In this document: positions 7,816-55,193 of the stretch, in pieces
Numbering within the stretch: the stretch's first letter is position 1
How the letters are laid out: each line of letters opens with the position of its first letter
NCBI GenBank assembly: GCA_030388825.1
Contig: CP128835.1
Location: 768,501 to 832,500 of the forward strand
From: Rossellomorea sp. AcN35-11
Lineage (GTDB): Bacteria > Bacillota > Bacilli > Bacillales > Bacillaceae_B
DNA length: 64,000 bases
Reading direction: 5' to 3'
Position numbers and translations under genes: made by a program
Notes under the pieces: generated by a model
Seen by the model: only the letters and a program-made list of their open reading frames with translations
What the model was told of the DNA's origin: nothing
Databases searched by the model: none

Positions 7816-9321
7816 TCAAGAATTATATGATTTACGTTTGCCAGCAGATTGTGGTCTGCCGCCTGTACGGTTGCGATCTCCGCCACGGCTTCCGCCTCCA
7901 CGGTTACCGCCGCGTGATGAACCACCGCGACTTCCGCCTTTACCACTGCGTGGGCCGCCTTTGTATCCACCGCGATTACCGCCACGATTTCCACCTTTTG
8001 ATGGTAATGGACGCTCTTCTGTAATTTCTACAGGTGTTGTATCAGGTTCTTTCGTCAGAACACGGATCGCTGCTGCTACTGCTTGAACAGGATCGTGATC
8101 CCCAAGGAATTCTTCAGCTAACGGATAGTACTCTTTAAGATCACTTTCCTTCGCTGCTTCAACAAGCTTCTCTAAAGCAAGGCGTTGTTGGCCTTCTAAC
8201 GCTTCATTTAAGCTAGGTGGCTTAAGAGCCGTCATTTTCTTCTTCGTTGTTTGTTCAACGATCTTCAGGTAACCCATTTCTCTTGGTGTGACAAAAGTGA
8301 TGGACATCCCTTTCTTACCTGCACGACCTGTACGTCCGATACGGTGAACGTAGCTTTCAGGATCTTGAGGAATATCAAAGTTGTATACATGCGTAACGCC
8401 TGAGATGTCTAATCCACGGGCAGCTACGTCTGTTGCGATCAGGATATCGATACGTCCTTCTTTGAATTTCTTAAGGACTGTCATACGACGGGCTTGAGAA
8501 AGATCTCCGTGAATTCCTTCTGCAAGGTAACCGCGGATGCTGAGAGCTCGCGCCAATTCGTCTACTCTGCGTTTTGTACGACCGAATACAATCGCAAGTT
8601 CAGGTGACTGAACGTCGATCAGACGAGATAGAGTATCAAACTTTTCTTTTTCACTTACTTTAGTGAAGTATTGTTCGATGTTTGAAACCGTAACTTCTTT
8701 AGACTTCACTTTGATGACTTCAGGCTCTGACATGAAGCGGTTCGCAATGCGGCGGATCGGATCCGGCATCGTCGCAGAGAATAGAAGCGTCTGTCTTGTG
8801 CTTGGAACTGTTTCAAGAATGCTTTCGATGTCTTCGATGAAGCCCATGTTCAGCATTTCGTCTGCTTCGTCAAGTACAAGTGTTTCAACGTTTTCAAGAT
8901 TAAGGGTTTTACGTTTGATGTGGTCAAGCAGACGACCTGGTGTACCTACGATGATATGAGGGTTCTTTTTCATCGCTCGGATTTGACGTTGAATGTCCTG
9001 TCCTCCGTATACAGATAATACGCGGGCACGCTTGTCAGCTCCGATACGATATAACTCTTCAGATACTTGGATGGCAAGTTCACGAGTCGGTGCAATGATT
9101 AGCGCTTGAACATTTGGATTTTTCACATCGATCTTCTCGATCATCGGGATACCGAATGCTGTTGTTTTACCTGTTCCGGTTTGTGCCTGGCCGATAATAT
9201 CCTTACCTTCTAAACCTACCGGGATTGTACTTGCCTGAATTGGTGTTGCTTCTTCAAAGCCCATACGTTTAATTGATTTCAACGTAGATGCGCTTAAGTT
9301 TAAATCTGCAAACTTAGTCAA
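7816..9321 (-). CDS. cshA: DEAD-box ATP-dependent RNA helicase CshA
   Basis: CshA unwinds RNA in ribosome assembly and mRNA decay. The motifs run in the standard order: Q motif GFEEATPIQ, Walker [35 protein letters not shown], then in the second RecA domain [22 protein letters not shown] and [10 protein letters not shown]. The C-terminal 60 residues are an RGG/SRGG-rich RNA-binding tail typical of Bacillus CshA. The true start is probably the TTG at 9321: AAAGGAG lies 8 bases upstream and the protein then begins [10 protein letters not shown], like CshA of B. subtilis. An in-frame ATG further upstream (9363) lacks a ribosome binding site. Confidence 0.96.
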
Positions 9322-12154: not shown

Positions 12155-13226
12155 TTACATCGTATGTTTAATGGTTTGTTTCTCTTGATAACGTTCCATG
12201 CCAAGCTCCACCAGTTTTCCGATCAGGGCAGGATAATCCACACCCGTGTGCTTCCAAAGAAGCGGGAACATGCTGAATGGCGTGAAGCCCGGCATCGTGT
12301 TGACTTCATTCATATAGATCTTGCCATCTTCCGTTAAGAAGAAGTCTGCACGTACCAGTCCAGAGCAATCAAGAGCTTTATAGGATTGGATTGCGATGTT
12401 CTTCATTTCATTGTAAATGCTTCCCTCAACTTCAGCAGGAATGATGAGGGCAGTATCGCCATCTTCATATTTTGCCTTATAATCGTAGAAGTCTTTTTTT
12501 CGGTACGATTTCACCTGCCACCGAGCATTCTGGCTGATCATTCCCCAGGACCCCAAGCTCGATTTCACGAGCTTTCACACCTTCTTCGATGATGATCTTA
12601 CGGTCGAATTGGAACGCTTCCTCGAAAGCTGCCGCTAATTCTTCCCGGGACGTACATTTGCTGATCCCTACAGACGAACCTAAGTTGGCTGGCTTCACGA
12701 AACAAGGGTACCCTATTTCCTCTTCCACTTGCTTGTAGGCAGACTCGGGATTTCCTTTCCACGTGCTGCGGATGAACCATGTGTACTTGACTTGAGGAAT
12801 ACCCGCCTGAGCAAATAAATTCTTCATGATGACTTTATCCATACCTGCTGATGAAGCAAGGACGCCGTTGCCCACATACGGAAGATTCAGCAGTTCAAGC
12901 ATCCCCTGAACGGTTCCATCCTCCCCATTCGGTCCGTGCAGCAATGGGAAGATCATATCGTACCTTTCGGATCCGGATGGAGAGATGGAAGTACTTAAGG
13001 CATTTGGGGCAATTTCTTCCCCTTCCTTAAACTGCAATGCTTTCACATCTTCAACGGGGGCATTGAGCTCCGGCCCTTTGATCCATTGACCTTCCGTTGA
13101 GATGAAAACAGGATGAATTTCATATTTATTTAAATCCAGGGCACCGATCACGGCCTTGGCTGTTTGCAGGGATACATTATGTTCAGCGGATTTACCGCCG
13201 TACAGTAAGCATAACTTCGTTTTCAT
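12155..13226 (-). pseudogene. ddl: D-alanine--D-alanine ligase, frameshifted here
   Basis: Ddl joins two D-alanines with ATP for wall synthesis and is essential. The N-terminal frame starts [20 protein letters not shown] after a GGAGG site and runs to GEIVPKK; the protein then continues in another frame as [13 protein letters not shown] to NEVNTMPGF. The switch falls in a run of seven A residues (minus strand) at about 12494-12500. Removing one A restores a continuous protein of about 356 residues, the normal family length, with the conserved [16 protein letters not shown] join. Because the gene is essential and the break is in a homopolymer, a sequencing insertion is much more likely than real loss. 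Confidence 0.93.
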
Positions 13227-13443
13227 GTATGAGTTACCTCCAATATTCACAATCTGTTTCTATTTTATCACTTTCATGGCAAAGGGAAAGAATGATTCCT
13301 ATGGAAAATAAAAATTACCACATTAGACTTGATTCGAAAGACATTCAATGGAAGCCCAATATATATGTATGCGAAAGAAAACTAGTCCTGCGACTCCCTT
13401 ATTAGTCTGAATACATTTAAAATTTCGCCTTTTTAAAAAGCTA

Positions 13444-14812: not shown

Positions 14813-15364
14813 TTGAATTTAACAGGTCAGCGTGTAACACTTAGAAAAATAGAAAAAAGAGATCTTCCTACTCTCTGGGACTATATTTATGGAGACCCTT
14901 CCCCTGAATGGAAGAAATGGGATGCCCCTTATTTCGAACACAAACATGTATCCAGGGAAGAATATATTGAATCCTCCATCAAAAAGAAAAGCCGCAACGA
15001 TGAATTCCAGCGGATTATTGAAGTGGACGGAAGCATCATCGGTACAGTCGGTTACTATTGGGAGTATGAGCCCACAAGGTGGCTTGAAGCCGGGATCGTC
15101 ATCTATGATCCTTCTTACTGGAATGGCGGATTTGGAACGGAAGCCCTATCCCTTTGGGTCGATCACCTCTTTAGAACGAAGGAAATCGGACGTGTCGGCA
15201 TCACCACTTGGTCCGGGAACGAACGGATGATGAAGGCTGCCGGGAAAATAGGGATGCAACTTGAAGGCCGGATGCGAAAATGCCGGTATTACAATGGCGT
15301 TTACTACGATTCCATCCGTATGGGCATGATCAGGGAGGAATGGGAAGAAAAACACACTCTCTAA
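14813..15364 (+). CDS. GNAT family N-acetyltransferase (RimJ/RimL type)
   Basis: This 183-residue protein has the RimJ/RimL-like layout: LTGQRVTLRKIEKRDLPTLW at the start, the beta-4 segment GSIIGTVGYYW near 75-86, the acetyl-CoA loop region YWNGGFGTEALSLWVDHLF near 101-119 and the C-terminal GKIGMQLEGRMRKCRYYNG. Such enzymes move an acetyl group from acetyl-CoA to an amine of a protein terminus, antibiotic or metabolite; the target is unknown. Translation starts at a TTG 9 bases after AAAGGAG, with a TATAAT box at 14774-14779. The next gene begins 13 bases later, so the two are probably co-transcribed. Confidence 0.88.
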   Translation: MNLTGQRVTLRKIEKRDLPTLWDYIYGDPSPEWKKWDAPYFEHKHVSREEYIESSIKKKSRNDEFQRIIEVDGSIIGTVGYYWEYEPTRWLEAGIVIYDPSYWNGGFGTEALSLWVDHLFRTKEIGRVGITTWSGNERMMKAAGKIGMQLEGRMRKCRYYNGVYYDSIRMGMIREEWEEKHTL

Positions 15365-15377
15365 AAGGAGTTACACA

Positions 15378-16468
15378 ATGAAAACGATCATCTTAGTCGG
15401 TGGCGGGCACAGTCACCTACATTGCATAAAAAAAACACATTCAGAACCGGGACGATCACGTGAAGTGGACCCTCATTTCCCCTTCACGTTATCAATATTA
15501 TTCAGGCATGTTCTCAGGATACACGGAAGGGCTCTATACATTAGAGGAAACGCGGATTGATTTAGAGAAACTGTGTGAAGAAGCTGGGTGCGAGTTCGTC
15601 GAAAGCTCCGTTCTCTCCATTGATCCCGATCAGCAGCATCTTCTGACGGACAAAGGAGACATTTTCACCTATGACGTTGTTTCATTCGACATAGGCTCAC
15701 GCAATGATTCCATGGAAATAAAGGGCTTGAATGAACATAATCTTCTCATCAAGCCGAACTACCGCTTCCCTGAACAAATAAAGAAGTTGCATAACAGCAG
15801 GAAAACCGTCTTTATCGGCGGCGGGACCGCGAGCATCGAAATGGCCCTTTCATTGAGGGCCTGGAAGTTGGAAAATGATTTCACTGAACATACAGTGACG
15901 GTCGTTCATTCCTCTCCACTCATAGAGAAAGCAGGTTCCTTCTCGTCGAAAAAAATAAATGGGGTCGCTCTTTCGAGAGGAGTCGAGCTCCATGAGGGAC
16001 GAGTTGAAAAAGTAGACGAAACACACGTATATACAGATAACGGTGCAAGCATCGAATACGAGGAAGTCATCTTTCTGGGCGGGCCAAAAGCGCCGCCGCT
16101 ATTCGGGAGCAGTGCTTTACCCACCGATCGAAATGGATTCCTGCTCGTGAACAGCTATCTTCAATCCGTCGAGTATCCGAATGTGTTTGGAGCGGGGGGA
16201 CTGTGCTACACTGAAAGACTTTCCGGATACGGCGAAAAACGGGGTGACAGCGGTTCGACAAGGACCCGTCCTTTGGAAAAACCTGAACGGAGCAGCATCA
16301 GAAGGGAAGATCTTTCCTTTTGATCCTCAAAAACGCTACCTCGCCATTATGTCCATAGGGAATAAAAATGGCTTCTTAACGTACGGTTCGTTTTCTTTGG
16401 TCAGCCGCTGGGCGTGGCAATTGAAGAATTGGATTGATGTGAGGTTTATGGGTAAATACGGGACTTAA
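15378..16468 (+). pseudogene. FAD-dependent oxidoreductase of the SelD-N-terminal-like group, frameshifted twice here
   Basis: Starting at the ATG after AAAGGAG, the protein opens with the FAD-binding motif TIILVGGGHSHLHCIK and continues with SPSRYQYYSGMFSGYTEG, the NAD(P)-site TVFIGGGTASIEMALSL and the GAGDCATLKD motif of NADH-dehydrogenase-like enzymes. GGGHSHL is characteristic of the oxidoreductase family that in some organisms is fused to selenophosphate synthetase SelD (TIGR03169 type). Two breaks occur: an 8-A run at 15428-15435 and a 6-G run at 16194-16199. One base too many in each, when removed, gives about 362 residues. It converges on the MerA-like gene and may work with that operon. 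Substrate is unknown. Confidence 0.85.
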
Positions 16469-16567
16469 GGGGGGGTAGCATTTCTTTATCGTTCCACCTG
16501 ATAAAGGGGCTGCATGGAACTTTCTCTATTCATTGTGCCAGATTGTGAACACACTTCCTACAAAACA

Positions 16568-16600
16568 AAAACGCAACTGCCTCTTAGCAGTTGCGCTTCC
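16568..16600 (-). terminator. Terminator of the ynj-like operon
   Basis: A perfect 9-bp stem (CGCAACTGC/GCAGTTGCG) with a 6-base loop is followed on the minus strand by TTTTTG, right after the MerA-like stop codon. It also lies beyond the end of the facing FAD oxidoreductase gene. Confidence 0.85.
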
Positions 16601-16604
16601 TGAA

Positions 16605-18030
16605 TCACCTGAATAACTCAACATACTTCTTACTGATTGCAGGCAGTACCCCATCGAACAGCTTCTCTCTCCAATAAAGATCTGCCACCTGCTGAACAGC
16701 TGCTGCGTGATTGGGATAAGGATAAACCATATTGGACAGGGCGCCGATTTTGCTTCCTTTTTCCATGGCAAACACGACAGGCTGCATCCAGTCTCCTGCG
16801 CCTGAACCGACTGCGTGGGCCCCGAGGATCTTCCCGCTCCCGTCTGTAATGATTTTGACGAGGCCACCTGTGTTATGATCTGCCACGAACCTGTCAACTT
16901 CGTCTAACGTTTTTTTTGTACACTTTATATTTTAACCCTTTTTCAATAGCCTCTTCCTCGGTCAAACCGATATGAAAGATTTCGGGTGAGGTATAGGTTG
17001 TCCAAGGCAGTTTGTTGTAAGAAACTTTGCGCTTCAAACCGAACACGGCATTTTGGACCACAAGCTTCCCTTCCATTCCTGCTCCATGAGTGAATGGATA
17101 TTGACCATTGACGTCACCTATGGCGAATATATGAGAATGGTTCGTTCTTAGTTCATCATCCACCTTGATGAAACCTCGATTGTCCACCTCGACTCCCGCA
17201 GCAGAGAGACGTAAAGAATCCGTTGAAGGCTTGCGTCCCGTGGCAAGGAACAATAAATCCCCTTCAACCGTATGTTCGACACCGTCTTTCACATAGTGGA
17301 CCACTTTCTGTCCGCCGTCTTTTGTAACACGTGCAATTTCAGCTCCGTAGATGAAGCGGATATCTTCTTCTAATAATCCTGTTGCCACTTCACGGATCTC
17401 TTTGTCCTCTTTCACCAATATTTCGTCATGCTTTTCAAGGACTACGGCGTCTGATCCTAGATACGAGAAGGCCTGTGCCAGCTCCAATCCAATCGGACCT
17501 CCCCCGATGAACACGACTCTCTTCGGCAGTTCATCTACTTCAAACACCGTTTCATTTGTATGGTACTCTACATCCTCCAAGCCTTCTATGTCAGGGATGA
17601 GAGGGCTTGACCCTGTTGCGATCACGATTCTCTTCCCGGAGATGCGGTCCTCTTTTTCCACTAAGATCGTATGTGGATCAACAAACTCCGCTCCTCCGAA
17701 ATAAATATCCACCCCTAATTGCAGAAAGCGGTCGGGATCGTCATGCTGTTGGATATGGGCGATGGCTGCCTTGACTCTATCCCTTACCTTCTTCATGTCA
17801 ACAGAGCCTTCTGTTTGGAAACCATATTCCCCGCCCGCCCTGATCACAGCAACCTCCCTGGCCGATTGGATGAACGCCTTGGACGGAACGCATCCAAAGT
17901 GAAGGCAGTCTCCCCCAAGAAGGCCGCTTTTTTCGATAAGGGCGACTCTGGCTCCGAGGGAAGCGGCTCCCGATGCGACGGTCAGGCCACCCGCTCCTCC
18001 TCCTATCACTATCAAATCGTATTGCTCCAT
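16605..18030 (-). pseudogene. MerA-like pyridine nucleotide-disulfide oxidoreductase, frameshifted here
   Basis: The N-terminal FAD motif (DLIVIGGGAGGLTVA) is followed by the redox-active disulfide GGDCLHFGCVPSK (Cys42 and Cys47), the NAD(P)H motif FIGGGPIGLELAQAF and the FAD motif HIFAIGDVNG. The C-terminal dimerisation domain (KILGAHAVGSGAGDW, YPYPNHAAAV) is read in another frame. The switch is in a run of 8 A residues (minus strand) at about 16910-16917; with one A less the protein is about 474 residues, the normal length for mercuric reductase and dihydrolipoamide dehydrogenase relatives. There is no N-terminal heavy-metal domain and no C-terminal vicinal cysteine pair, so mercury reduction is unlikely. 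It is the last gene of a seven-gene operon, 12 bases after the preceding one. Confidence 0.88.
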
Positions 18031-18042
18031 CGTAATCTCTCC

Positions 18043-18624
18043 TTATGAAAGTAATCGTTTCGCTTCTAAGAAACGTTGTAAGCCTGTATACAATTCCACC
18101 CCAACAAACAATAAGGTGGTCCACAGAACGAAGGACGGAAATAACATCATGATACTGAACAGAATGAAGCCCTCTGTCCGTTCAGCCAATCCCGCCTGAT
18201 AATAAAAAGATTTCATCCCCTGTTTCTCTGACACTGCTCCAACCGTCAGGAAAATAGTCATGGATATGATGATGGAAACGCTTAGTAAAAGAAGGGCCCA
18301 CATGATATCAGGATGTAGAAAAGCGATACCGAGTATCACACTTATCTCTACTATTCGATCAAAGGTCACGTCCATGACCGTCCCAAAGGGAGATGGTTTT
18401 GTTAACCGTGCCATGGTTCCATCTACGGCATCCAGGAACCCGGATAGCCATAATAAAATGACCGCTATGACAGGAAAACCCGAATAATAAACGAGACCGG
18501 TGGCCGAGCCAATAATAAATGCTCCCACCGTCACCTGATTGGCTGATAATCCCCTTTTCAAAAACTGTTTTGCCGTTCTCTCTATACTTGGCTGTACCCA
18601 TTTACGGGCATGTGTATCTAGCAT
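18043..18624 (-). CDS. CDP-alcohol phosphatidyltransferase family protein (YnjF-like)
   Basis: This 193-residue integral membrane enzyme carries the catalytic signature DG-x2-AR-x8-G-x3-D-x3-D in AVDGTMARLTKPSPFG followed by TVMDVTFD (about residues 67-90), plus four to six hydrophobic helices. Such enzymes displace CMP from a CDP-linked lipid with an alcohol headgroup. The alcohol acceptor is unknown. The gene lies 14 bases after the TVP38 gene and 12 bases before the MerA-like gene. E. coli ynjF belongs to the same family and lies in the corresponding cluster. It is not pgsA by context, since pgsA lies elsewhere in bacilli. Confidence 0.87.
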   Translation of the reverse strand: MLDTHARKWVQPSIERTAKQFLKRGLSANQVTVGAFIIGSATGLVYYSGFPVIAVILLWLSGFLDAVDGTMARLTKPSPFGTVMDVTFDRIVEISVILGIAFLHPDIMWALLLLSVSIIISMTIFLTVGAVSEKQGMKSFYYQAGLAERTEGFILFSIMMLFPSFVLWTTLLFVGVELYTGLQRFLEAKRLLS

Positions 18625-18638
18625 GTGTTTCCCATCCT

Positions 18639-19301
18639 TTACGACTTATCATCCTTACTTGATAACCCAAGCCATTCTTTCATTTTTTTCTTGTAAATCA
18701 AAGGCACGATGATCATGATCAAGAAGAATGCAATGGCTATATATAAATTCGTCCGATCTTCTCCTACTAAGCTTGACCCAAGAAAGACATAGCCAAACGT
18801 TCCCGGGAGAATCCCGATCCCAGTCGCGGCGATAAATGGGATATACCTTACCTTACCCATTCCGGCAAGGTAACTGATGAGATCGAAATTCAAAAACGGC
18901 ACGAGCCGCAATAGTAATACATAAACAAAGCCGTTCTCCTCCATCTTCTCCTGGATCTTCATCATTCGGGGAGATGGGCTCTTTAATAGTTTAGCCCCCA
19001 GGAGACTTGCGGCGAAATAGGCTACCGTTGCGCCACCCAAAGCCCCTAATAGAATATAGATAAAGCCTTCGAATGCACCGAATGCAAGTCCGGCCGCCAA
19101 TGAAAGGATGGAAGCAGGAAAAAGGATCAATGGACGAATCGTATAGGCGACAACGAAGACAATGGGAGCCCAAATGCCAAATCCTACGATCCAGTCCCTG
19201 ATATCTTTAGGTTTTACATTAAAAAAATTTCGGCTAAGCCACATGAGCAGCAATAGGATGAAAATGAATAATACAATTTTACCAATTTCCTTCTTCTTCA
19301 T
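18639..19301 (-). CDS. TVP38/TMEM64 family membrane protein
   Basis: This 220-residue protein has about five or six transmembrane segments and the SNARE-associated/VTT domain pattern: VAYTIRPLILFPASILSLAAG, then FGAFEGFIYILLGALGGATVAYFAASLLG and VLLLRLVPFLNFDLISYLAGMGKVRY. Members of this family and the related DedA group are linked to lipid scrambling, proton motive force or selenite/heavy-metal handling in different organisms; the role here is unknown. Its ATG overlaps the stop of the ATPase gene by 4 bases. E. coli ydjX and ydjZ, next to ynjBCD, are of the same family. Confidence 0.9.
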   Translation of the reverse strand: MKKKEIGKIVLFIFILLLLMWLSRNFFNVKPKDIRDWIVGFGIWAPIVFVVAYTIRPLILFPASILSLAAGLAFGAFEGFIYILLGALGGATVAYFAASLLGAKLLKSPSPRMMKIQEKMEENGFVYVLLLRLVPFLNFDLISYLAGMGKVRYIPFIAATGIGILPGTFGYVFLGSSLVGEDRTNLYIAIAFFLIMIIVPLIYKKKMKEWLGLSSKDDKS

Positions 19302-20278
19302 TCTTCTCCCCCCTTATCCTCTCTCTGAAACGTTTGGATGTGCTTCGGCTCTGTGTATAGCCAGGTTTCATCCAAGTTCCCATCGATTTGAAGTGGCAGA
19401 TTCAGCTTTTGCTGAAGCTCTTCCACCCATACTTCATATAGATTCATTCCCGATACAAAACGTTTTTTTCTCACGGACCCTTTCCACTGTGGCTTGGATG
19501 TGTCAGGAGGGCTGGAACTTACTTTAATATGGGAAGCATGGACGAAATGTTGATTCATGATCAATCCATCACTCATAAATGACGCGGCAAATGGGGAAAC
19601 GGGACGATAGTAAACATCCTCAGGGGACCCTATCTGCAGAAAGTCACCATCATGTAAAACTGCGACCCGATCTCCAAGCTCATACGCTTCATCACGATCA
19701 TGTGTAACGAATATGACGGTTGTTTCCTCTTCTTTAAATATCTTTCGTACCCACTGTCTCAGCTCTTTCCTCAGTTGCAGGTCGAGACTGCTGAACGGTT
19801 CGTCTAACAGTAAAAGCTTCGGCTTCAGAATGAGGGAACGTATAAGGGAAACCCGCTGATGCTGACCTCCTGAAAGTTCCGATGGATAATGATGCATCAC
19901 CTCTCCGAGACCGACACGTTCAATGTATTCCTTGGCTTTTTTCCTGTTTTCCACTTTGTTTCGCCCCTGCATTTGCAAGCCGTACATGACATTTTCAAGG
20001 ACATTCATATGTGGAAATAATAATGGCTCTTGAAAGACCATACCAATGGGGCGTTCTTGAGGCTTTAGGGAATGAATTTCGTTTCCTTCTACCGCCATTT
20101 TCCCTCCAGTTGCCGACTCTAACCCAGAGAGAATCCGAAGGAATGTCGATTTTCCTGAACCCGATGTTCCGACTAATGAAAGGATTTCTCCTTTATTCAA
20201 TGAGAAGGTTACGCCTTTCAGTATCTCTTTTCCGTTAAAACTTTTGGTTAATTGATGAATTTCTATAAAAGACCTCAA
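19298..20278 (-). CDS. ABC transporter ATP-binding protein (YnjD-like)
   Basis: All motifs of an active ABC ATPase are present: Walker A GTSGSGKST, Q-loop VFQEPLLF, signature LSGGQHQRVSL, Walker B LLLLDEPFSSLD and switch histidine VTHDRDEA. The C-terminal 100 residues form an accessory domain. The best start is the TTG at 20278: GGAAGGAG lies 6 bases upstream and TTGA overlaps the stop of the permease gene, a common coupling pattern. The protein is then 326 residues beginning LRSFIEIHQLTKSF. It energises the two permeases encoded just upstream. Confidence 0.93.
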   Translation of the reverse strand: MRSFIEIHQLTKSFNGKEILKGVTFSLNKGEILSLVGTSGSGKSTFLRILSGLESATGGKMAVEGNEIHSLKPQERPIGMVFQEPLLFPHMNVLENVMYGLQMQGRNKVENRKKAKEYIERVGLGEVMHHYPSELSGGQHQRVSLIRSLILKPKLLLLDEPFSSLDLQLRKELRQWVRKIFKEEETTVIFVTHDRDEAYELGDRVAVLHDGDFLQIGSPEDVYYRPVSPFAASFMSDGLIMNQHFVHASHIKVSSSPPDTSKPQWKGSVRKKRFVSGMNLYEVWVEELQQKLNLPLQIDGNLDETWLYTEPKHIQTFQREDKGGEE

Positions 20279-21072
20279 CGTTTTCTCCTTCCTCTTAGAT
20301 GTCCATACGGCAAGATAAATTTCAAACACCCTTCGAAAATGATGTACATCATGATGGGAATGAGGGCGAACACGATGGAAAACGCTGCCATCACGGCCTC
20401 ATCCGCTGTATCCGTAAAAGGATAATACACCATGGAAAGCGTCACGACATTCCCTCCGCCAATGATCGCTGTCAAGACATATTGGCTTAAGCTGATCACG
20501 ATCGTCAGGAATAGAACGCTTCTGATACTGGGAAGCAGCATGGGCATTTCAATATAATAGAAGCGTTGAAGGGCTCTTCCACCGAGCAGGGCTGACTGTT
20601 CGATTAATTTCGTGCCGATCCGCTCATAGCCTGTCTTGAATATTTTGATACTGTATGGAATGGTAGGGACCAGGTGGACGAGGGCCACACCTGTCCAGTG
20701 ATCAGCCAGACCATACCGTATAAACGTAATTTGAAGACCAACGGCCACCACCAATACAGGAAGAAAAAGTGGCAGCATCAGAAGAGCTTCTACGGTGGAT
20801 TTCCCTCTAAAAGTCGATAGAGCTAGCACTTTTCCTGAAGTGATGCCGATTAGAAAGTTGATTGCCAGTACAACGGTGGCGATCCAGATGGAGGTACCGA
20901 TGGAATCCAGGAATCCCCCCTCATTCATTAACACTTTCCATGCCCTTAGTTCAGGTTCAACAGGGACAGGACTGCCCCATCTCCACACACCAAAAAAACT
21001 CTTATAGACCAAAAATAAAAGGGGAAACACAAAGAGAAGAAAAGATATGCTATAGAATATGGATTTTCTCAT
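20275..21072 (-). CDS. ABC transporter permease (YnjC-like, second half)
   Basis: This protein of about 265 residues has six hydrophobic segments and the binding-protein-dependent transport motif near ALLGGRALQRFYYIEMPML, where the inner-membrane EAA loop contacts the ATPase. It is like the permeases of thiamine, iron, sulfate and polyamine importers. ATG at 21072 follows GAGGTG at a good distance; an upstream in-frame start would overlap the preceding gene. It is paired with the preceding permease to form a heterodimeric channel; in E. coli YnjC the two halves are fused. Confidence 0.9.
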   Translation of the reverse strand: MRKSIFYSISFLLFVFPLLFLVYKSFFGVWRWGSPVPVEPELRAWKVLMNEGGFLDSIGTSIWIATVVLAINFLIGITSGKVLALSTFRGKSTVEALLMLPLFLPVLVVAVGLQITFIRYGLADHWTGVALVHLVPTIPYSIKIFKTGYERIGTKLIEQSALLGGRALQRFYYIEMPMLLPSIRSVLFLTIVISLSQYVLTAIIGGGNVVTLSMVYYPFTDTADEAVMAAFSIVFALIPIMMYIIFEGCLKFILPYGHLRGRRKR

Positions 21073-21082
21073 GTGAACACCT

Positions 21083-21946
21083 CTAATTCCCAATCCCTTT
21101 TGTTATGTGCATCCGTTTCTTGTTTGTCACGTAAATAAGGAGCCACATCACTCCACCGATGGATAGACCCACTAATACAAGTGAAGCAAATGCCAGTGGC
21201 CGGTCACTCCAGTTTCCACTGTAAAACCAGTCGTATGCAAGAATAGCCAGCATCTGCGGTGACGTCACCCCCAGGAGCTGAGGCACTTCAAATGCCGTAA
21301 AGATGAAAGCGAACAGGATCGCTCCCGTCTCCACCAGAACGGGGAAAATAAATGGCCATTCCGCCACCCAGAATGTCTTATAAGGTCCTGCTCCCAACAA
21401 AGAGGCTACTTCCTTATATCTTTTCGATAGGGTCGCATATACAGGTAACAGCATCAGCGTGACAAAGGGTACTTCCTTCCATACGTATGTCAGTATCATT
21501 CCAATTCCCTTACCATCCTGAACGAGAACAGGGAATTGACTTCTATCGTCAATCCAGCCCGCTAATCCGGACAAGTTTGAAAAGAAGCCGCTTTGGTTAA
21601 AGAGCAAATACACGAGATAAGCCCATACAAAATGAGGAACCAGCATGGGAATCCAGACAAGGAGCTTGAACTTGTTATCCTTGAGTAGAGGTGAAAATGC
21701 CTTTACAATCATCAACCCGAGGATAAGAGCTAAGACCGTCGAGATGGAGGTCACGATGACACTGAAGAGAAAAGATGCTATGAAACGCTTGTCTTCGAAT
21801 AAGTCAAGATAATGCCGAAGCGTGATGGTTTCTCCACTCCTGACACTTTCCAGTAACGCAAGGACGATCCCAAGTCCTGGAATAAGAATGAAGAAGAGCA
21901 GAGCTGGAATGAGGAGGAGTGAATTATTGGCTCTCCGCCACTTCAC
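21083..21946 (-). CDS. ABC transporter permease (YnjC-like, first half)
   Basis: This 287-residue permease has about six transmembrane helices; a periplasmic-type loop after the first helix (VLALLESVRSGETITLRHYL) and the EAA-like loop KEVASLLGAGPYKTFWVAEWP are typical of the ThiP/PotB-type permease family. The frame overlaps the substrate-binding protein gene by 23 bases. The GTG at 21946 has no clear ribosome binding site, so translation is either coupled or starts slightly further inside. It forms the importer channel with the next gene. Confidence 0.88.
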   Translation of the reverse strand: MKWRRANNSLLLIPALLFFILIPGLGIVLALLESVRSGETITLRHYLDLFEDKRFIASFLFSVIVTSISTVLALILGLMIVKAFSPLLKDNKFKLLVWIPMLVPHFVWAYLVYLLFNQSGFFSNLSGLAGWIDDRSQFPVLVQDGKGIGMILTYVWKEVPFVTLMLLPVYATLSKRYKEVASLLGAGPYKTFWVAEWPFIFPVLVETGAILFAFIFTAFEVPQLLGVTSPQMLAILAYDWFYSGNWSDRPLAFASLVLVGLSIGGVMWLLIYVTNKKRMHITKGIGN

Positions 21947-23156
21947 GTATCCAGTTCTCCTTCAACCATTCTACATAGCGGGCATCCAATTCCCCCCTGA
22001 AGCTTTCTTCGAGGACAGAAGCTTCCAGCACACTTTCTCCACGGTCGATGTCCATAAATTTCGTTCTCCATTCCTCTTCCAGCTTTTCATAAGAAATCGG
22101 TGTACTTTCTCCCCAATAATCCGGTTTCAGCTTTTCGTACTGCGCTTCAGGTGAAAGCAGTTCATTTATGGCCACCATCGCTCCTTCTTTGTTGGGGCTG
22201 TTAAATGGGATCGCAAGAAAATGAGTATTCCCTATCGAACCGGCATCGTTTAATACAAATGACTTGGTACTTTCCGGAAACACACCATCTTTAATCAAAT
22301 GCTCTGCCCTAGCTTCGTTGTATCCCATTGTCATCCAGACCTCTTCCTGACTGTACAGCTTATCCAGATCGGTCAGGGTTGACGGATACGTTTCTCCCTC
22401 TCTCCACAAATAAGGCTTCATGTCATTCAACTCTCTCCACACTTCTTCCCCTAACCCTTCAGCTTTTCCTTCGTCGAATCCAGATTGAGCCAGATCAGAG
22501 CCTGCTTTTGCATAAAGAATATGGCGGAGGAATGCATTCCCGGTGAAGTCTGCGGGATTCGGATAGGAGAATTTACCGGGATTCTCTTTCATGAATTCCT
22601 TTAATTCACCGAAGCTGGAAGGTGGATTCTGTACTTTTTCACTGTTATAAAAGAAGACAAATTGGACTTTCCCCCATGGAGCTTCAAATCCTTCGGTTTC
22701 TGTGCCGAAGTCATATTGAAATGCTTCACTTTCAGTATCGTAATACTTCGTATAGTTTGGTAGCTTTTCTGCAAATGGACCCGCAAGCAGCTCATTTTCC
22801 TTAGCGTTTTTAAAGTTTTCTCCATTAATCCAGACAATATCGATCGTGCCCTTCTCTTTGCCGGCACGTTTCTCTGTTTGAAGCTTTTGGAGAATCTCCT
22901 GTGTATCTAATGGAACACGATTTAATTCAATTTTATTCTTTTCTTTCAGGATAGGAGCGACTACGTCATCAATGTAACGGTTAATTCCCTCATCTCCTCC
23001 CCACATGAATAGATTCACTTTCGACCCTTCTGCATTCGATGAAATGGTTTCCCAATTTTCATCCGGAAGTTCCTTCTTACCGGTTGCATTTGAAGGTCCG
23101 CAAGCAGATACTAATAGTAAGGAAATAAAGCTGATAATAGCTAACCATTTTTTCAT
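21924..23156 (-). CDS. YnjB-family ABC transporter substrate-binding lipoprotein
   Basis: A signal peptide ending in lipobox LVSAC (cysteine near residue 19) anchors this 410-residue protein outside the membrane. The mature part starts with an ENWETI segment, then VNLFMWGGDEGINRYIDD, TIDIVWINGENF, WGKVQFVFFYNSEKV and MGYNEARAEHLI, which match the E. coli YnjB family rather than ordinary maltose or iron binders. The ligand is unknown. It is the first gene of the operon, with AGAGGAG upstream of the ATG. The operon continues with two permeases, an ATPase, TVP38, a CDP-alcohol transferase and a MerA-like enzyme, with overlaps or gaps below 15 bases. Confidence 0.9.
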   Translation of the reverse strand: MKKWLAIISFISLLLVSACGPSNATGKKELPDENWETISSNAEGSKVNLFMWGGDEGINRYIDDVVAPILKEKNKIELNRVPLDTQEILQKLQTEKRAGKEKGTIDIVWINGENFKNAKENELLAGPFAEKLPNYTKYYDTESEAFQYDFGTETEGFEAPWGKVQFVFFYNSEKVQNPPSSFGELKEFMKENPGKFSYPNPADFTGNAFLRHILYAKAGSDLAQSGFDEGKAEGLGEEVWRELNDMKPYLWREGETYPSTLTDLDKLYSQEEVWMTMGYNEARAEHLIKDGVFPESTKSFVLNDAGSIGNTHFLAIPFNSPNKEGAMVAINELLSPEAQYEKLKPDYWGESTPISYEKLEEEWRTKFMDIDRGESVLEASVLEESFRGELDARYVEWLKENWIREVAESQ

Positions 23157-25952: not shown

Positions 25953-27130
25953 ATGGAAACTCGCCAGCGATTTGCAGATAAGATCGATTGGGGTCTTCTC
26001 TTTTTATTAATGCTATTTTTTATCGTCAGTGCCATGGGAATAAGCAGTGCGCAAACTTCAGGGCAATACGGGACAAACTTTGTGATCCGGCAGGCTTTTT
26101 GGTATGTGGTAGGTGGAATTATTATAGTAGGAGCTTTATTTCTGGATTCTGATCAGTATAAGCGACTTGCCTGGTACATATACGGTGCAGGGATTTTCCT
26201 TCTCGTTGTGTTAATGATTTCGCCCGGAAAGTATCGCTCCTTACCGGAACGGGGCCAAAAGCTGGTTCATGCTGGGACCCCTTGGCTCTATCCAGCCTTC
26301 GGAATTTATGAAGACATTTTTAATCCTTGCTCTCGCCAGGATTATTACGAATCATCACGAACTTCACCCAAGTAAAACATTGGAAACTGATTTTCATTTG
26401 CTGTTGAAGATTGGGTTTACGACCCTTCTCCCCCTTGCCTTTATCATGCAGCAGCCTGATCTGGGGACATCCCTTGTTATTTTAGCCATCATGACAGGAA
26501 TTATCTTAGTTTCAGGTATTACGTGGAAACTGATCGTTCCGATTTATGCTTCCCCTTGGAGTCATAGGCGGCGTTCTTTTGTCACTCGTTATTTGGGCTC
26601 CTCAGTTCCTTGAAAAGTATACTGGGTTTAGACCCTATCAATTTGGGCGTATTTATGCCTGGCTGGATCCTTATAACTATGCAAAACTAGAAGGGTTCCA
26701 CTTAATCAACTCCCTTAACGCCATAGGTTCAGGACAGATCTTCGGAAAAGGGTACAGTGGAGGCGAAGTATATATACCTGAAAATCATACGGACTTCATC
26801 TTCAGTGTAATTGGGGAAGAATACGGATTTGTCGGGGCAAGTGTTGTCATCAGCCTTTACTTCCTGTTGATTTATCATCTGACTAAAACAGCATTAGATA
26901 CGAAAGAACCATTCAATGCCTATGTTTGTGCCGGAATCATCAGTATGATTACTTTCCATGTTTTCCAGAACATTGGAATGACGATTCAATTGCTTCCGAT
27001 TACCGGAATCCCTCTTCCTTTCATCAGTTATGGAGGAAGCTCCCTAATGGGGAATATGCTGGCCCTCGGACTGGTATTCAGCATGCGGTTCCACCATAAA
27101 ACATATATGTTCTCATCAGAAGATTCTTAA
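25953..27130 (+). pseudogene. RodA/FtsW/SpoVE family peptidoglycan polymerase, frameshifted twice here
   Basis: Members of this SEDS family polymerise lipid II glycan strands with a partner penicillin-binding protein. The pieces together give about ten membrane segments with the family motifs SWFMLGPLGSIQPSEFMK, FIMQQPDLGTSLV, GSGQIFGKGYSGGEVYIPENHTDFIFSVIGEE (in two parts) and LPFISYGGSSLMGNMLALG. The frame changes near 26244-26250 (CCGGAAC, probably CCGAAC) and near 26541-26545 (ATTTA, probably ATTA); removing one base at each restores about 391 residues, the normal length. It is more RodA-like than FtsW by its PENHTDF motif. It is monocistronic between a small ORF and the argS leader. Confidence 0.88.
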
Positions 27131-27165: not shown

Positions 27166-27186
27166 AATAGTAATTATATACAACAT

Positions 27187-27404
27187 TCGATGATGAAGAG
27201 AGTAATTCCAACGCAATCGAGCGAGCCGGGGATGGTGGGAGCCTGGTGGAAAGCCTGGAATGAACCGCACTTCTGAGGAGTTTTTCTTGAAGTCAGTAGA
27301 GAAAAACCGGGATCTCCCCGTTATACAATGAGCGCCCTTTCCGGGAATAAGAGTGGTACCGCGAGCTAAACTCGTCTCTATATTTTAGAGACGGGTTTTT
27401 TTTT
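27187..27404 (+). ncRNA. T-box riboswitch (tRNA-Arg responsive) with terminator
   Basis: The leader has the T-box order: GATGAAGAGAGTA at the stem I base, the GGGAGCC apical part, GAACCGCA with a candidate specifier codon CGC (27266-27268, arginine), the T-box core GAGTGGTACCGCG (27351-27363) and a terminator stem CGTCTCT/AGAGACG followed by nine or more T residues. Uncharged tRNA-Arg would pair with the specifier and the UGGU bulge, favour the antiterminator and turn on argS. The CGC reading matches the downstream enzyme. Confidence 0.95.
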
Positions 27405-41315: not shown

Positions 41316-41422
41316 TTCTTATCCAGAGAGACGGAGGGACTGGCCCTTTGATGTCTCGGCAGCGGACTCCATAGGAGTGCTGTGCCACATCCAGCAAGCG
41401 CAATGCTTGAAAGATAAGGGGA
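41316..41422 (+). ncRNA. SAM-I riboswitch (S-box)
   Basis: The leader shows the S-box order: TTCTTATCCAGAGAGACGGAGGGA, CTGGCCCTTTGATGTC, CGGCAGCGG, then GTGCCACATCCAGC and the closing strand GAAAGATAAGG that pairs with the start. GAGGGACTGGCCC and the P1 pairing are diagnostic. High S-adenosylmethionine should favour the terminator at 41440 and switch off the downstream transporter. Confidence 0.93.
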
Positions 41423-47599: not shown

Positions 47600-47705
47600 A
47601 AAAAAAACCACACAAAAACGTATTCCTACGTTCGTATGTGGTCGGTTGCGCTACTAGCTCCCCTAAATGTAAGCGCCCATCTATCATTTAGGTTCAAAGC
47701 TCCCA
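47600..47705 (-). promoter_or_regulatory. Structured leader RNA with terminator upstream of the EAL gene
   Basis: On the minus strand a perfect 8-bp stem CCTAAATG/CATTTAGG is flanked by GGGAGC and GGGGAGC, followed by GTAGCGCAACCGACC and then a terminator (CCACA ... TGTGG followed by eight T residues) about 30 bases before the EAL start codon. The order of structure, terminator and gene is that of a riboswitch or attenuator. It does not match the cyclic di-GMP-I, cyclic di-GMP-II or other classes I know. Confidence 0.6.
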
Positions 47706-47808
47706 TTCGAATTGTCAGTAGATCATTTTATCTTATAAGAAAAATATACCACAAACATAGTTCTTATGGGGGATGTTTTTCTGTAACTATTTGAAAATTC
47801 CCAAAAAA

Positions 47809-54926: not shown

Positions 54927-54959
54927 ATCTCATTTGTCATTAGTATTTACATTGGTCAC

Positions 54960-55117
54960 TCTTTTCTTCCCTTTGTCCATCAAGTTGCCTCAATGATTTA
55001 AGAAAGAAATTTTCGGTTCGGTGACACTGCGAACCGGGAGGCATCCGCCGAATACTCGATAAACCCCCACCTCGTCAACTAAGCGATTTATCTCGTCCAT
55101 CGCTCAGCCCTGGCGCT
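54960..55117 (-). ncRNA. glmS ribozyme/riboswitch
   Basis: The minus strand reads AGCGCCAG at the cleavage site (55117-55110), then GTTGACGAGGTGGGGGTTTATCG, TTCGGCGGATGCCTCCCGG and the P3/P4 arms (CGGTTCG ... CGAACCG, then CATTGAGGCAACTTGATGG). These are the core conserved blocks of the glucosamine-6-phosphate-dependent ribozyme. Binding of glucosamine-6-phosphate triggers self-cleavage, which destabilises glmS mRNA and gives feedback on wall precursor supply. Confidence 0.97.
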
Positions 55118-55193
55118 TTAAAAGGATGTTACCCTGCTATCCACCTTTCCTTCTTGACTCATTTCCATTTTATTTCAAAACGAAAACAAAATT

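Follow-up and report, generated by a model that had tools for sequence, protein, structure and literature searches.

A YnjBCD importer module conserved across bacterial phyla that is paired with either a CDP-alcohol phosphatidyltransferase or a nucleosidase/kinase set

The ydjXYZ-ynjABCDE cluster of Escherichia coli, with ynjF on the other strand, encodes the binding protein, permease and ATPase (YnjB, YnjC and YnjD) of an ATP-binding cassette (ABC) importer together with a cytidine diphosphate (CDP)-alcohol phosphatidyltransferase and two TVP38 proteins. A published table assigns ydjXYZ-ynjABCD to the FNR regulon of E. coli, together with operons such as frdABCD and narK (PMC3688515), and the portion of the literature searched yielded no tested function for YnjBCD or YnjF. 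Here we analyse a related seven-gene operon in a 64,000-nucleotide stretch of Rossellomorea sp. AcN35-11 (CP128835.1, positions 768,501 to 832,500; the whole stretch is called the window, and positions are counted from its first base). This gene set is a real module that is conserved across phyla and shuffled in order, and YnjBCD loci contain either the CDP-alcohol phosphatidyltransferase (hereafter CDP transferase) or a set of nucleosidases and kinases, almost never both; this either/or pairing beside YnjBCD is a new observation. We give a probability of about 45% to the reading that the whole is an uptake-and-capture module, in which one hydroxyl-bearing ligand would be shared by two capture routes and accompanied by TVP38 transport and flavoenzyme redox steps.

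The operon occupies positions 16567-23156 of the window on the minus strand. Its first gene (21924..23156) encodes a substrate-binding lipoprotein of the YnjB family (NF008633, 450.7 bits, cut-off 203) whose lipobox cysteine, Cys19, is conserved in 88% of 113 aligned YnjB sequences. Then follow, on the same strand, two ABC permeases, the first (21083..21946) equivalent to the first half of E. coli YnjC and with weak PhnU2/PotH/WtpB-type matches under the cut-offs, the second (20275..21093) matching PF00528 (39 bits, cut-off 26.4), and a YnjD-type ATPase (19298..20278; PF00005, 126 bits); with YnjB over its cut-off and two permease halves and an ATPase adjoining, we assign the importer to the YnjBCD type. 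Further downstream are TVP38, a DedA/VTT membrane protein (18639..19301; PF09335, 87 bits, cut-off 33.9), a YnjF-type CDP transferase (18043..18624; PF01066, 40 bits) and a MerA-like flavoenzyme, frameshifted in the assembly into an N-terminal piece (16894..18030; PF07992, 217 bits) and a C-terminal piece (16605..16886; PF02852, 41.9 bits). The first-pass annotation had described seven one-strand genes that overlap or lie less than 15 bases apart before one terminator, and the coordinates, the domain matches and a strong intrinsic terminator (16567..16600, minus strand, a 15-pair stem with a T-run after it) bear this out: YnjB and the first permease overlap by 23 bases, the two permeases by 11, and the ATPase and TVP38 by 4, and the remaining two gaps are 14 and 12 bases. 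The spacing between the second permease and the ATPase depends on the choice of ATPase start, since the mechanical open reading frame starts at 20329 and the TTG codon at 20278 was read as the likelier start. On the plus strand, facing the operon as the annotation had also stated, is a GGGHSH-type flavin adenine dinucleotide oxidoreductase of the TIGR03169 type (15378..16468; SelD-N-terminal-like, hereafter SelN). It lies in three frame pieces, 15378-15459 (the start piece, read by eye), 15460-16323 and 16181-16468, two of which match TIGR03169 (164.7 and 81.6 bits); against a cut-off of 310, intact relatives score 279, 287 and 346 bits.

The window operon and the E. coli cluster share the importer, the CDP transferase and TVP38, and their YnjB proteins are 36% identical. 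The E. coli cluster differs in having YdjY, YnjA and the rhodanese YnjE, in having no annotated MerA-like or TIGR03169 gene, and in its YnjC, which is one fused permease where the window has two genes. The earlier statement that E. coli keeps ynjB, ynjC, ynjD, ynjF and the TVP38 genes in one cluster near selD was right on gene content, but ynjF has the opposite orientation to ynjBCDE, and selD is separated from the cluster by genes that include gdhA, ynjI and topB. All of the window families are found in one run on a Citrobacter conjugative plasmid (NZ_CP083652.1, locus L254), which encodes a TVP38-MerA fusion, a TIGR03169-type oxidoreductase (287 bits), YnjB, YnjC, YnjD and the CDP transferase. 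It is unlike the window in that TVP38 and MerA are fused, the permease is fused, and the flanks hold DUF2282, DUF692 and DoxX genes and transposases. We regard the window system as a variant of importer-plus-headgroup chemistry and file its genes under known families wherever their matches allow it.

Conservation was measured at YnjB loci that were picked by a YnjB match and sufficient contig room, with neighbours ignored. The sample comprised 170 loci: 60 from a Bacillota genome survey, 80 named loci (the best 80 of 576 confirmed), 24 from a second phylum, 1 from a third, 3 from plasmids, E. coli and the window; one further plasmid locus, L256, was labelled and excluded from the 170. Requiring at least 3 kb on each side left 144 loci, and one per 80% identity cluster left 114. 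Pseudomonadota and Cyanobacteria entered without systematic sampling, and plasmid records stood in for a search centred on E. coli. The share of genomes with YnjB over the NF008633 cut-off was 25 of 36 in the family, 82 of 249 in the order and 30 of 398 in the phylum, with 31 of 346 in the second phylum (centred on Salinispora) and 2 of 198 in the third (centred on Desulforhopalus); viral contigs gave one relative. Relatives of the window genome are Rossellomorea/Bacillus, with named loci (L154-L159) whose YnjB is 74-83% identical to that of the window.

Neighbours within 10 kb of YnjB were labelled by the best match of self-built profiles at thresholds that we set. Among the 114 loci, TVP38 was found in 75, the CDP transferase in 72, the MerA-like enzyme in 49 and SelN in 30; other neighbours were an APH-type kinase (24), a dicluster iron-sulphur protein (23), rhodanese (21), nucleoside hydrolase (18), a Crp/FNR-type regulator (14, confirmed by Pfam in L131), a glycosyltransferase (11), a nucleotidyltransferase (8) and a YedE-like protein (7). 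The first-pass annotation had proposed a system shared across phyla, and the survey upholds it: at least two of TVP38, CDP transferase, MerA-like enzyme and SelN accompany YnjB in 71 of 114 loci, at least three in 41 and all four in 22, with one in 21 and none in 22. The outcome that would have counted against the proposal, more than two families kept together in a handful of genomes only, was thus not observed. It might be argued that YnjBCD is an ordinary nutrient importer, for thiamine, a polyamine or similar, with unrelated genes hitch-hiking beside it; the YnjB family is weakly similar to ThiB and to polyamine binders, APH-type kinases weakly resemble thiamine kinase, and thiamine genes follow the module on a Falsirhodobacter plasmid. 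This is improbable in our view, because the partners persist through 41 distinct gene orders, counted over the 75 loci in which YnjB has at least two partner genes, and because the chance of a VTT gene in a 21-kb stretch would be ∼4% (at the window genome density of 9 VTT genes per 4.8 Mb), whereas TVP38 was observed in 75 of the 114 loci. The GNAT acetyltransferase gene (14813..15364, plus strand; PF13302, 81 bits), which ends 13 bases before the SelN start and had been noted as facing the operon, was dropped as a member of the module, as a match was present in only 9 of 62 loci and seven of the nine are the window and its genus.

The partner enzymes follow an either/or rule. Any of four neighbours made a locus kinase-type: nucleoside hydrolase, APH-type kinase, methylthioribose kinase or a methylthioadenosine-phosphorylase-like (MTAP-like) protein. 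The CDP transferase was present in 72 of the 114 loci and this nucleosidase/kinase set in 32, with both in one (L357) and neither in 11 (Fisher p=1.5e-17, with loci treated as independent). The 48 Bacillota representatives of the genome survey gave the same picture (39 with the CDP transferase, 7 with the kinase set, none with both and 2 with neither), and so did a larger set of 165 loci, labelled at other thresholds and with no dereplication (100, 42, 2 and 25, respectively). On the YnjB tree, which was made by a quick method with SH-aLRT support only, the CDP and kinase labels change 16 times each, and at least 12 and at least 11 of these changes are forced by supported branches; hence the swap recurred. 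Two Streptomyces loci, L203 and L231, have YnjB proteins 80.5% identical and opposite partners, an MTAP-like gene in the former and the CDP transferase in the latter. L198, from the cluster that L197 represents, has both types: a 67-aa YnjB fragment (8054-8254) lies towards the CDP gene, with a complete YnjBCD of the kinase type downstream of it. This is possibly a frozen replacement of one type by the other.

That the two sets almost never occur together suggests that they act on one shared molecule, and the ligand is narrowed to a substrate of both a phosphatidyltransferase and the nucleosidase/kinase set. The content of two loci points to a ribose-like ligand. L101 has, in a single gene run, SelN, the MerA-like enzyme, TIGR04283, TIGR04282, methylthioribose kinase (478 bits, cut-off 275), YnjBCD, nucleoside hydrolase, YdjY and TVP38, and L203 has a radical S-adenosylmethionine (SAM) fusion protein (the N-terminal half phosphoesterase-like by eye), TIGR04283, TIGR04282, the MTAP-like protein, the MerA-like enzyme, TVP38 and YnjBCD. 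We propose that the import substrate of YnjBCD is a single small molecule that bears a hydroxyl group and probably includes a ribose-like moiety. In loci of the window type, the CDP transferase would move the phosphatidyl group from CDP-diacylglycerol onto this ligand to give an unusual phospholipid, which TVP38 might then move across the membrane; in the alternative type, the ligand would be processed by a nucleoside-cleaving enzyme (hydrolase or phosphorylase), by a sugar kinase (of the APH type or a methylthioribose kinase) or by both. A nucleotidyltransferase and/or glycosyltransferase lies alongside in 10 of the 32 kinase-type loci. A known parallel is choline, which reaches phospholipid by two routes, through phosphatidylcholine synthase or through a kinase and a nucleotidyltransferase. 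As in the module, one imported alcohol is fixed by direct phosphatidyl transfer or by kinase plus nucleotidyl transfer; the choline routes differ in protein families and ligand, and the nucleoside hydrolase and glycosyltransferase of the module are extra.

The lipid half of the proposal can be followed in the two membrane-related proteins. CDP-alcohol phosphatidyltransferases share the motif DxxDGxxAR...GxxxDxxxD, and its residues D65, D68, G69, A72, R73, G81, D85 and D89 are invariant in 71 aligned copies of the CDP transferase, so that the motif is intact. The nearest solved sequences include inositol-phosphate enzymes; an assignment as phosphatidylinositol-phosphate or archaetidylinositol-phosphate synthase was rejected, with scores under the model cut-offs (60.1 versus 170 and 97.7 versus 180 bits). 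TVP38, which we take to be COG0398, was present in 59 of 72 loci with the CDP transferase and in 7 of 10 kinase loci with a glycosyltransferase or nucleotidyltransferase, versus 2 of 22 kinase loci with neither. TVP38 thus tracks the lipid or glycosyl branch, which fits a mover of a lipid or glycolipid product. The window TVP38 lies inside a supported tree group of TVP38 proteins from YnjBCD loci; the tree also contained six further VTT paralogues from the same genome, none of which joins this group. In the part of a DedA study that we could draw on, one DedA subfamily is described as putative phospholipid flippases and COG0398 proteins as those most often fused to flavoenzyme (oxidoreductase) domains like those of the module (PMC10127716). 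TVP38 is accordingly a putative lipid flippase or transporter of the product. The idea of import followed by lipid capture, put forward in the first-pass annotation, has been strengthened by the enzyme swap and by TVP38 tracking the lipid branch.

Several observations weigh against the uptake-and-capture reading. The 16 label changes on the YnjB tree compare with means of 34.7 and 28.1 for shuffled labels, so the labels also cluster by clade, and clade habits explain part of the rule. L357 carries both sets, and 11 of the 114 loci have neither, although for two of these, L225 and L257, other listings include a CDP gene, which was sub-threshold here. Some of the kinase-type labels have low scores: nucleoside hydrolase scores 38-51 bits in five Actinobacteria loci, the MTAP-like gene of L203 scores 148 bits, under the curated cut-off of 275, and L356, although counted among the 32, owes its MTAP label to a single-sequence profile and a score of 67 bits. 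A single-query search of solved-structure sequences gave no match for YnjB, and a profile search of solved structures gave weak relatives only, for example polyamine binders. Moreover, COG0398 is tied to aerobic metabolism in the portion of PMC10127716 available to us, whereas many of the loci here come from anaerobes and the E. coli operon is in the FNR regulon.

The redox partners also fall into two sets. MerA-like enzymes were found in 49 of the 114 loci and dicluster iron-sulphur proteins in 23, with both in only 1 (p=1e-5); SelN goes with the MerA-like enzyme in 27 of 30 loci. We suggest that the MerA-like and TIGR03169 flavoenzymes set the redox state of the ligand or a partner thiol, and that an iron-sulphur oxidoreductase, with or without rhodanese, could take this role in other loci. 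SelN resembles NDH-2, FSP1 and sulphide:quinone oxidoreductases. Mercuric reductases carry a C-terminal Cys pair for Hg(II), and classical disulphide reductases a catalytic His (His-Pro) near the C terminus. In 42 aligned copies of the MerA-like enzyme, a CxxxxC pair (C42 and C47 in L101) is conserved and no other column reaches 40% Cys, and an invariant Tyr-Pro (Y440 and P441 in L101) aligns with a Tyr of a solved mercuric reductase. Mercury reduction by a MerA was therefore rejected on the missing second Cys pair and on the score of the N-terminal window piece (312 bits versus the TIGR02053 cut-off of 454), and full-length relatives are likewise under this cut-off (419 bits in L206, 369.5 in L254); a classical disulphide reductase was rejected on the Tyr-Pro in place of His-Pro. 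The MerA-like proteins form a clade of 46 rows (43 YnjBCD-linked and 3 linked to glycosyltransferase or ArsS loci) with 100/100 support, separate from the E. coli enzymes Lpd, Gor, RclA and SthA, in a tree that contained no true mercuric reductase and whose bootstrap was not fully settled. L104 has a second, divergent MerA-like gene near its operon, outside the module clade.

A chalcogen reading, raised as a possibility by the first-pass annotation, supposes a small ligand containing sulphur or selenium, with its chalcogen handled by the flavoenzymes and rhodanese. The rhodanese and YedE-like neighbours counted above agree with it, as do the YnjE sulphurtransferase of the E. coli operon, the TIGR03169 model, named for its place before SelD, the methylthioribose kinase and MTAP-like enzyme of two loci, and a sub-cut-off resemblance of YnjA to a YciW-related (seleno)protein model (101 versus 310 bits). 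In addition, the consulted part of PMC10127716 cites a paper linking DedA with selenite resistance. We nevertheless consider this reading rather unlikely: of the 21 loci with rhodanese, 15 are of the iron-sulphur version and only 3 have the MerA-like enzyme, a thiol or oxyanion alone leaves the CDP transferase, kinases and nucleoside hydrolases unexplained, and the arsenosugar-type neighbours described below fit equally. The proposed linkage to selD also failed and was dropped, as selD lies near YnjB in 1 of the 114 dereplicated loci and in 3 of 142 in a wider count (L191 and L197 also show selD in another listing), and the selD of the window genome is at 3.03 Mb, versus 0.77-0.83 Mb for the window. 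This selD (G000:C1:3031115-3032042) is broken into two frames; an in-frame TGA falls within the N-terminal match, and the second match contains a TAG.

Clusters with the radical-SAM protein ArsS (TIGR04167) and the models TIGR04282, TIGR04283 and TIGR04169 raise an arsenosugar-type alternative, in which the ligand would be a riboside of methylated arsenic or a similar metalloid and the CDP enzyme would make a product like an arsenosugar phospholipid. The 'arsenosugar' models TIGR04282 and TIGR04283, TVP38, YdjY, rhodanese and the MerA-like enzyme are common to YnjBCD loci and ArsS clusters, the two transferases being present in some YnjBCD loci. Fourteen Bacillota loci without YnjB that were anchored on the glycosyltransferase had TVP38 (10), rhodanese (6), YdjY (4) and the MerA-like enzyme (2), and 3 of 6 radical-SAM proteins scanned from such loci were ArsS over the cut-off. 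Thirty ArsS loci of another phylum, with ∼1.5 kb flanks, had TVP38 (9), glycosyltransferase (8), nucleotidyltransferase (7), MerA-like (4) and YdjY (2), although two of these TVP38 matches are weak, scoring 65 and 76 bits, inside the span of 39-85 bits covered by the other VTT paralogues of the window genome, and two MerA-like ones are weak or truncated, at 121 and 164 bits. In the TVP38 tree, 7 of 12 rows from glycosyltransferase loci intermix with rows from YnjBCD loci in the E. coli YdjZ-type group, and the 8 rows from ArsS loci group apart, with support, together with a single row from a YnjBCD locus; in the MerA-like tree, the three proteins from ArsS or glycosyltransferase loci fall in the module clade. 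L357 has YnjBCD, kinase, nucleotidyltransferase, glycosyltransferase and CDP transferase in a row, and its genome also carries ArsS.

Against these likenesses stand the genome-wide counts, and we hold the arsenosugar-type alternative to be unlikely. The window genome has no match to the arsenite methyltransferase ArsM at E<=1e-60 and its best TIGR04283 match is 84 bits, under the cut-off of 182. A link to arsenic methylation through ArsM co-occurrence came out negative, with YnjB over its cut-off in 2 of 10 ArsM-positive genomes of the order versus 82 of 249 overall, and ArsS was over its cut-off in 0 of 7 YnjB genomes tested. The module is also present in E. coli, which is not known to have an arsenosugar pathway, and this too counts against the alternative. 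ArsS exceeded its cut-off in 67 of 228 genomes of one phylum, and the co-occurrence of TIGR04283 and YnjB in Bacillota is modest (YnjB over cut-off in 4 of 17 TIGR04283 genomes versus 26 of 299). One genome, G761, has ArsS and YnjBCD on different contigs. YnjA gave no match as the arsenosugar peroxidase-like TIGR04169. Among the loci with TIGR04283/04282, an LPG_synthase_TM flippase-like protein recurs beside these genes in L340, L342, L343 and L345-L348 (PF03706 in L345), and a C_GCAxxG_C_C redox protein is confirmed in L345 and looks present in others of these loci.

A more specific version of the uptake-and-capture reading would have YnjBCD import an arsenosugar-like 5-substituted riboside bearing a metalloid or chalcogen. 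Phosphatidyl-ribosides, lipids akin to arsenosugar phospholipids, would then be made by the CDP enzyme, as the enzyme class so far missing for this step, and flipped by TVP38, and with the nucleosidase, kinase, nucleotidyltransferase and glycosyltransferase as a non-orthologous replacement; the FNR-regulated operon of E. coli would do likewise. We regard this detailed form as distinctly unlikely. The selenocysteine-assisted organometallic (SAO) system resembles the module in combining an ABC importer with metal(loid)-type chemistry, as far as the accessible text of PMC13188914 describes it. It has another binding protein and other partners, and among the matches listed there was only generic ATPase similarity (SaoA, 170 versus 360 bits).

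Plasmid copies show that the module is mobile. A YnjB 67% identical to that of E. coli is present in at least 24 plasmid records (among 40 listed of 75) from Klebsiella, Salmonella, Escherichia, Citrobacter and Providencia, several of them from milk or cattle. The one of the 24 that was opened, L254, has the module in an IS5075/Tn3-flanked island with DUF2282, DUF692, DoxX, SulP and universal-stress genes. Such surroundings might suggest a stress-resistance role, in which the importer and the lipid enzyme would alter the membrane in response to oxidant or envelope stress and serve no specific ligand, and a 1.4-1.6-fold rise of E. coli ynjAB with BaeR, which may be indirect, is described in the section of PMC2731931 that we consulted. 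This is very improbable in our judgement, since YnjB has tens of near-invariant positions, which argue for a specific ligand, and the FNR regulon membership of the E. coli operon points to anaerobiosis and not to oxidant stress. Returning to uptake and capture of a shared ligand, the either/or rule constrains that ligand, and the finding is stronger than first described.

The window genome is 4.8 Mb in size, with a stated contamination of 9.23%. Besides the MerA-like and SelN genes, two others named by eye are frameshifted in the assembly: one of the ddl type (12155-13250), in two overlapping frames, and one of the FtsW/RodA type (25953-27130), in three. Since all four are broken, indel or sequencing error in the assembly is likely; the MerA-like frame is intact, at 508 aa, in the relative L096. 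Rfam at the gathering threshold found no riboswitch in 14.8-23.2 kb, and elsewhere in the window it holds RNAs ordinary for Bacillaceae: a T-box leader (27181-27382), a SAM riboswitch (41316-41420), a c-di-GMP-II riboswitch (47631-47711) and a glmS ribozyme (54953-55128).

The proposed reading supplies a testable function for the E. coli operon, for the TVP38 branch of the DedA family, for YnjF and for the TIGR03169 flavoenzymes. If the window-type loci do make a new phospholipid, a new area of lipid chemistry in bacteria would open up, one that may bear on the origin of organoarsenic or organoselenium lipids.

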